A DNA stretch of 64,000 bases from Pseudonocardia sp. (GTDB lineage: Bacteria > Actinomycetota > Actinomycetes > Mycobacteriales > Pseudonocardiaceae): NCBI GenBank assembly GCA_025869365.1, contig JAOZVV010000180.1, positions 48,768-112,767 on the forward strand, in the 5' to 3' direction. Below the pieces are notes generated by a model. The model saw only the letters and a program-made list of their open reading frames with translations. It was not told the DNA's origin and did no database searches. Position numbers and translations under genes: made by a program. This document shows positions 61,855 to 62,853 of this stretch, one piece after another (the stretch's first letter is position 1; the number at the start of each line of letters is the position of its first letter).

Positions 61855-62783
61855 TGGCCCGGCACCTCCTGCGCGACGACGACCTCTCACCCGCCGAGCA
61901 GGCCGAGATCCTCGCGCTCGCCGCGGAGATGAAGCGGGACCGCTTCGCGCACCGCCCGCTGGCCGGGCCGAAGTCGGTCCTGGTGATCTTCGACAAGTCC
62001 TCGACCCGCACCCGGATCTCGTTCGAGGTGGGCATCACCCAGCTCGGCGGGAGCCCGGTGATCCTCGACGCCGCCACCAGCCAGCTCGGCCGGGGCGAGA
62101 CCATCGAGGACACCTCCCGGGTGCTGTCCCGCTTCGCGGACGCGGTGGTCTGGCGGACCGGCGGGCAGAGCAGGATCGAGGCGATGGCGAGCGTGTCGTC
62201 GGTCCCGGTCGTCAACGCGCTCACCGACGAGTTCCACCCCTGCCAGGTGCTCGCGGACCTGCAGACGATCCGCGAGCGGTTCGGCCGCCTGGCGGGGCTG
62301 ACGCTCACCTATCTCGGCGACGGCGCGAACAACATGGCGCACTCGCTGCTCCTGGGCGGTGCCACCGCGGGCATGCACGTGCGGATCAGCGCGCCGGAGG
62401 GCTTCACCCCCGATCCGGACGTCCTGCGGGACGCCAAGGCCCGGGCCGCGGAGACCGGCGGCGGCGCGGACCTGATCCAGGATCCGCACGCGGCGGTCGA
62501 GGGCGCGGACGTGCTCGTCACGGACACCTGGGTGTCCATGGGTCAGGAGAACGACGGGATGGACCGGGCGGCGCCGTTCCGCCCGTACCGGGTCGACGCC
62601 GATCTGGTGGCCCGGGCGAACCCCGGCGCGATCGTCCTGCACTGCCTGCCCGCGCACCGCGGGGACGAGATCACCGACGAGGTGCTGGACGGTCCGGCGA
62701 GCGCGGTCTGGGACGAGGCGGAGAACCGGCTGCACGCACAGAAGGCGCTGCTCGCGTGGCTGCTGGACCCGGCCCGGGGATGA
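61854..62783 (+). CDS. argF: Ornithine carbamoyltransferase
   Basis: 309 residues. It has the carbamoyl-phosphate motif [14 protein letters not shown], the HPCQ site in [31 protein letters not shown] and the ornithine loop [11 protein letters not shown]. It makes citrulline. ATG 61854 ([10 protein letters not shown]) is used; GTG 61851 is open. Its TGA lies within the first unit of a 17-bp tandem repeat that leads to argR. Confidence 0.97.
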
Positions 62784-62853
62784 CGGTGGTGCTGCGATGA
62801 CGGTGGTGTCGGGATGACGGCGGTGTCGGGATGACGCTGGTGCTGCGATGACC
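62779..62853 (+). repeat. 17-bp tandem repeat forming four overlapping minicistrons between argF and argR
   Basis: Units are 62779-62795, 62796-62812, 62813-62829 and 62830-62846, plus a 7-nt partial copy at 62847-62853. The consensus is GATGACGGTGGTGYYGS. Each unit contains an ATG (62780, 62797, 62814, 62831) that reads six codons (MTVVLR, MTVVSG, MTAVSG, MTLVLR) to a TGA overlapping the next ATG as ATGA. The argF stop lies in unit 1 and the argR ATG in the partial unit 5. Confidence 0.9.

Follow-up and report, generated by a model that had tools for sequence, protein, structure and literature searches.

The argF and argR genes of Pseudonocardia sp. are joined, in the 64,000-nt stretch of contig JAOZVV010000180.1 analyzed here (the window), by a short tandem repeat that doubles as a chain of four six-codon minicistrons—each with a TGA stop overlapping the ATG of the next start. 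Judging from sequence comparisons, we consider it probable that duplication of an ATGA overlap produced a four-minicistron relay, along which terminating and restarting ribosomes would walk from argF to argR. The argF–argR case is not unique: similar ladders occur elsewhere in the source genome and in the genus, and their unit lengths in the genus are biased toward 2 mod 3.

A chain of minicistrons between argF and argR

The features of the junction are as follows.

61854..62783, + strand: argF, ornithine carbamoyltransferase (NCBIfam TIGR00658, 383.1 bits against a cut-off of 280.85; read from the sequence)
62780..62800, + strand: rung 1, MTVVLR and stop; its ATG at 62780 overlaps the argF TGA, and its TGA at 62798-62800 overlaps the rung 2 ATG
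62797..62817, + strand: rung 2, MTVVSG and stop (read from the sequence)
62814..62834, + strand: rung 3, MTAVSG and stop (read from the sequence)
62831..62851, + strand: rung 4, MTLVLR and stop; its TGA at 62849-62851 overlaps the argR ATG
62779..62852, + strand: the array as a whole, 4.4 copies with a period of 17 (score 92 in Tandem Repeats Finder)
62848..63321, + strand: argR, arginine repressor (NCBIfam NF002880, 246.9 bits against a cut-off of 200)

The end of argF reads CCCGGGG-ATGA, with the stop codon (TGA, 62781-62783) lying inside the first ATGA. The 68 bases from the first ATG consist of four 17-bp units, each of which opens with ATGA and is read for six codons up to a TGA overlapping the ATG that follows. 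The fifth ATG, within the last partial unit and 64 nt downstream of the argF stop codon, is the start of argR. ATGA motifs accordingly stand at 62780, 62797, 62814, 62831 and 62848 (the argR start), and all five junctions from argF to argR are stop/start overlaps of this form. A preliminary description had reported four 17-bp units acting as ATGA-linked six-codon minicistrons, and the sequence bears this out, as does Tandem Repeats Finder—the array has a match of 84%, and its score ranks second among the 42 rows returned for the window.

Random spacers give a measure of chance. An unbroken ATGA chain of at least four rungs appeared in none of 200,000 random 68-nt spacers of the window's composition, and a chain of any kind in 68% of them, because a spacer of 2 mod 3 requires just one open rung. 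The four-rung array is real and beyond chance, and lone rungs prove little; spacers of 29 or 41 nt bridged by one rung, which come cheaply at a length of 2 mod 3, were excluded from the evidence.

The array belongs to a close-packed arginine operon, in which argB and argD overlap by ATGA and argD and argF by TGATG. NCBIfam matches above cut-off identify argD, argF and argR; argG, cut by the window edge, has a partial match, and argB is presumed from its position. No sigma-70-like promoter or terminator was found within 61800-63500, no Rfam family matched at the gathering score in 61800-63999, and the RNA fold of 62750-62900 is unremarkable (z = +0.62). A second short tandem array (63306-63369; period 16, four copies, no ATGA chain) starts in the final argR codons and ends just before the AAGGAG that precedes argG, and short repeats thus stand at both ends of argR. 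Further off, a 15-bp tandem array of 4.5 copies followed by a 14-15 bp array (13017-13106) lies near the start of a presumed UvrB-like frame and a divergent frame.

Further ladders in the source genome and the genes they join

A search of the source genome for spaced ATGA triplets revealed further arrays beyond argF–argR. A 14-bp ladder of three rungs separates dnaJ from rsmE (L168 1487-1529, contig C87), and a composite ladder of 17-bp units separates hom from thrC (homoserine dehydrogenase and threonine synthase; L174 1966-2035, contig C157), ending in a TGATG overlap at threonine synthase. The unit sequences of these three ladders—17, 14 and 17 bp—differ within the one genome. Across 30 dnaJ–rsmE loci, the source genome's own included, 20 have a gap, 6 a chain and 4 a direct overlap.

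Ladder junctions across the genus span genes of very different function. We submitted the proteins flanking 23 of them to Pfam, the window's own junction and one homologue being excluded, and a family was matched by 18 of the 21 downstream and 15 of the 19 upstream proteins submitted. Operon-like pairs joined in this way include a class-V aminotransferase and mnmA, a histidine kinase and a response regulator, uvrC and rapZ, and a permease and an ATPase. Separately, a non-repeated pair of six-codon minicistrons stands directly before a gene starting MIEMRLAD, presumably murF, in six genomes (L179, L185, L187, L207, L211 and L213), and is similar in all of them. Rungs kept there without repeats may be functional.

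The argF–argR junction in related genomes

argR was matched in 61 of 62 Pseudonocardia genomes (no match in G049), and 60 of the 61 junctions were read (G046 was omitted). Twelve of the 60 loci carry a chain and 5 a gap, four of the chains consisting of one 29- or 41-nt rung, attainable by chance. Chains of 17-bp units were found in G000 (four rungs), G029 (two), and G015 and G016 (one each, in near-identical genomes); G028 has one 17-bp rung that uses GTGA, and single 14-bp rungs occur in G001, G023, G052 and, by eye, G036. The preliminary description had proposed that units are gained and lost, and rung number does differ between species (0, 1, 2 or 4); the ladder itself is mostly absent, 43 of the 60 junctions being a plain, direct stop–start overlap.

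The set of named species, with 76 classified loci, gave a similar breakdown of 61 direct overlaps, 9 chains—among which L095, with no rungs, is wrongly placed and is not to be counted—and 6 gaps. Five of its members named Pseudonocardia (L064, L065, L066, L079 and L106) duplicate genus genomes, and 4 of 140 argF–argR loci were excluded for lack of an argF match. Two loci classed as gaps (L010 and L021) have, by eye, minicistrons of 17 + 26 nt and of 14 nt, respectively, ahead of argR. At two Mycobacterium loci (L069 and L073), argF and argR are separated by 71-nt inserts of MIRU-like form, with a small frame that overlaps both genes.

A tree of 59 rows places the window's genome in a clade of seven, six of which have a chain, two of them via a 41-nt rung. 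The two-rung G029 clusters with plain-overlap genomes, and chain states fall in several separate places. Since the overlap is the commonest state in the genus and the chains are scattered, ladders appear to grow on the overlap repeatedly, and those at argF–argR appear to have arisen several times.

The differences in rung number raise the question of whether the count itself is selected, as the setter of the ArgR-to-ArgF ratio, with slippage supplying the variants. Ribosomes would be expected to be lost at each restart, and the variation extends from argF–argR (0, 1, 2 or 4 rungs) to one other junction with two units in G047 and three in G056; drift would explain such variation equally well, and the junctions that carry ladders vary widely in function. 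We regard a selected rung count as possible, though doubtful.

Unit length follows a frame rule across the genus

We scanned the 62 Pseudonocardia genomes for three ATGA motifs at a fixed period of 13, 14, 16, 17 or 18 bp, the genus-level periods covered, with the reversed pattern as a control and with sums made by hand. Units of 17 bp gave 62 matches (9 in the reversed control) and units of 14 bp gave 51 (2), as opposed to 7 (14) for 16 bp and 6 (14) for 13 bp. Pooled, this amounts to 113 matches of 14/17 bp versus 13 of 13/16 bp, with reversed controls of 11 and 28 (Fisher P = 3e-13, computed on matches, those that share an array not being independent). To count repeats proper, matches were grouped into arrays per strand, with adjacent units at least 70% alike; nine 17-bp cases, one 16-bp case and one 13-bp place fell below this threshold and were dropped as non-repeats. 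The filter left 31 arrays of 17 bp, 30 of 14 bp, 6 of 16 bp and 3 of 13 bp, i.e., 61 versus 9 (sign test, P = 1e-10), or 59 versus 8 per place, since two 14/17-bp places and one 16-bp place were counted on both strands.

The arrays also differ in placement. We scored an array as lying exactly between two coding frames when the upstream frame ends at its first TGA and the downstream frame starts at its last ATG; 17 of the 31 arrays of 17 bp and 8 of the 30 of 14 bp do so, as against 0 of 6 (16 bp) and 0 of 3 (13 bp), or 25/61 versus 0/9 when pooled. The other 36 of the 61 are not placed exactly between coding frames by this GC-based test, and 14 of those lack any gene link by it, including L193, the hom–thrC ladder, which the test missed. 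As a criterion it is rough: L217 and L252 satisfy it with downstream frames that are weak, and one junction appears twice, as L192 and L197 of two genomes. A slightly different repeat filter, giving 16/30 instead of 17/31 junction ladders of 17 bp, defines the set of 24 junction ladders used below, whose 68 minicistrons are all free of inner stops. For in-frame units of 18 bp, the hand sums were 124 matches and 56 reversed, many of them non-repeats, and 2 of 22 rows, drawn from 20 hand-picked places that looked tandem, lie exactly between coding frames.

Neither phase fits inside a same-strand gene, because three ATGA at a period that is not a multiple of three place a TGA in all same-strand frames. 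At a junction, a unit of 16 or 17 bp leaves the flanking proteins unchanged and shifts the start by a nearly equal distance. What differs is the outcome of restarting at the first ATG: a unit of 2 mod 3 leads to the next start, and one duplication of a 1 mod 3 unit leads out of frame past the true start, two 16-bp duplications rebuilding the chain over 32 nt. That arrays of 13 and 16 bp are so scarce in Pseudonocardia hence suggests use of the first ATG by restarting ribosomes, with broken chains being weeded out. This comparative frame rule supports real use of the chain; by itself, the bias would look the same whether the relay is useful or just tolerated.

The wider class and an unselected scan

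The bias to 17 bp is weaker in the class than in the genus. A class-wide sample of 394 genomes gave 200 matches of 17 bp (62 reversed) and 116 of 16 bp (88 reversed), and among the 30 loci fetched per period, junction arrays made up 6 of 26 (17 bp) and 3 of 24 (16 bp). All three 16-bp junction arrays are, by eye, still chains—one of them over 32 nt, the others through an inner TGA that precedes an ATG by one or two nt. Moreover, 14 of the 116 matches of 16 bp are 8-bp repeats, themselves 2 mod 3. Such 8-bp ATGA repeats, a by-catch of the 16-bp search, form three-codon chains by sequence in G173, G384, G321, G259, G453, G079 and G432.

In an unselected scan of 1.2 Mb from two genomes, covering 1,177 coding stops, 22 duplications spanned a stop. 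Two of the 22, of 9 and 16 bp, have a downstream coding start; neither is a ladder, and the 16-bp duplication runs against the frame rule, in a scan too small to decide the mod-3 rule for single duplications. Such tandem duplications are common in G294, where in the first 800 kb of contig C1 they span 19 of 652 coding stops, mostly with no start following.

A proposed relay of restarting ribosomes

We propose that local tandem duplication of the original argF–argR ATGA overlap made the 17-bp array. A ribosome leaving argF would terminate, restart at every rung and arrive at argR; with the rungs present, each step would be an ordinary ATGA overlap. The junction would probably tolerate slippage that enlarges it, provided the relay stayed whole, and selection would retain the relays that ribosomes can walk. 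Each rung would hand on just those ribosomes that restart, so the amount of ArgR made per ArgF is predicted to fall as the ladder lengthens. More tentatively, ladders might be viewed as a self-growing element of actinobacterial operons, in which replication slippage would add or take away six-codon rungs, selection on reading frame would keep all of them walkable, and rung number would act as a digital attenuator of the downstream gene, here argR.

Published work on coupling bears on whether rungs would be needed at all. According to PMC10666635, a stop-to-start gap of about 20 nt nearly abolished coupling in six native pairs, drawn from two species, and in E. coli the final 15 nt of the upstream frame were enough for it. 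With the argF stop 64 nt before argR, coupling would, if the rungs were absent, likely be weak or lost. Other experiments, cited in parts of PMC10666635 and PMC12548453, found coupling over 39-73 nt or more with no overlap, in which case the rungs would be less necessary.

The rungs do not appear to be driven by Shine-Dalgarno sequences. Across the 24 junction ladders, the later starts pair with the 16S tail at -5.67 kcal/mol versus -5.72 kcal/mol for shuffled sequence (first start excluded), and we rejected Shine-Dalgarno-driven rungs for lack of any excess in this set; with no extra pairing on average, the overlap itself likely does the work. The preliminary description had noted that the argR start lacks a clear Shine-Dalgarno sequence. 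Its point stands for the ladders as a group and less well for this array, in which three inner starts pair more strongly (-8.8 to -8.9) and the argR start is near average (-6.2). Its central proposal of stepwise reinitiation gains from the relay architecture, backed by the genus frame rule, and loses from the finding that the ladder is not conserved at argF–argR.

The array could also be a neutral scar, i.e., a junction duplicated by slippage, at which free ribosomes start argR at 62848 and the upstream rungs lie idle. The absence of the ladder from most relatives, the merely average Shine-Dalgarno-like pairing at argR and the 20 of 22 stop-spanning duplications in the unselected scan that adjoin no coding start all agree with such a scar. 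A scar, however, predicts that 13/16-bp units should be as common as 14/17-bp units, and in the genus their matches are about nine times rarer; the reversed-pattern controls lack any bias to 14/17 bp. On balance we think idle rungs unlikely.

The composition of the rungs suggests a further possibility: rungs ending in CGA might stall ribosomes at low arginine and thereby reduce the synthesis of ArgR. CGA is the last sense codon in two of the window's four rungs, and some relatives' argF–argR rungs are, by eye, rich in arginine. The other two end in glycine, however, and arginine is the commonest last residue throughout the 24 junction ladders (26 of 68 rungs), mostly before unrelated genes, on which ground an arginine attenuator was rejected. 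Nor does the window have the features of a leader-peptide attenuator, since its rungs contain no run of arginine codons, the fold is ordinary and no terminator-like site was seen, and we judge this reading very improbable.

Origin of the ladders and relation to known systems

Local duplication, the origin favored under the relay model, predicts matches that run on into the flanks. Flank matches beyond both ends sum to at least 16 nt in 6 of the 24 ladders (counting the ATG A of the last start); the argF–argR array is more worn, with a sum of only 6 nt, which makes its own origin less certain.

The preliminary description knew of no described system of this form, a statement that does not hold, as the stop–start logic is shared by mycobacterial interspersed repetitive units (MIRUs). 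As described in PMC12548453 and PMC4213456, MIRUs (e.g., at senX3–regX3) are repeats lying between genes, and the small frame they contain becomes coupled at -4 nt to the gene that follows; the tandems of two strains are made up of three 77-bp units or of two such units plus one of 53 bp. The argF–argR repeat likewise has, judged by sequence, a small frame coupled at -4 nt, and we note that both MIRU unit lengths, 77 and 53 bp, are likewise 2 mod 3. MIRUs form one dispersed family. They are apparently mobile, with units of 53-77 bp in the parts of those sources that describe them, whereas the ladders are built of locus-specific units of 14 or 17 bp that look like local duplications; in the source genome, the units of the argF–argR, dnaJ–rsmE and hom–thrC ladders are shorter than that and differ in sequence. 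Insertion of a MIRU-like mobile element into the ATGA overlap has in its favor the shared stop–start logic and the similar one-rung, 71-nt inserts of the two Mycobacterium loci; with units that vary by locus and 6 of 24 ladders continuing into their flanks as duplications would (only 6 nt at argF–argR), we find it scarcely credible here. As a general origin it was rejected, since units are locus-specific and the best-preserved ladders extend into the flanks.

Two further systems invite comparison. Gene pairs with ATGA-overlap termination–reinitiation, as covered in parts of PMC6728339 and PMC10666635, resemble the ladders in their -4 nt overlap and in the step proposed for it; these pairs are described there with one step per two genes, whereas the argF–argR ladder inserts four extra six-codon steps. 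In minigene leaders such as that of axe–txe, according to PMC8708949, a very short frame likewise acts in cis on translation of the gene that follows. The same source describes one or two minigenes with no tandem growth, and the mg2 stop lies 15 nt from the txe start, non-overlapping. In the open-access literature, we found no earlier report of short tandem stop–start ladders. MIRUs are the nearest known system found, and the ladders are shorter and look home-made.

Implications

Bacterial translation poses the open question of whether a gene is started by the very ribosome that has just finished its upstream neighbor, and ladders of this kind are natural experiments on it. Repeats of 14/17 bp and of 13/16 bp leave the same flanking proteins and differ in the fate of a restarting ribosome—and the genus keeps mostly 14/17 bp. 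The ladders also offer ready-made chains, requiring two to six restarts, for measuring the efficiency of restarting per step. Finally, they suggest a route by which junction repeats could grow inside operons without severing the next gene.
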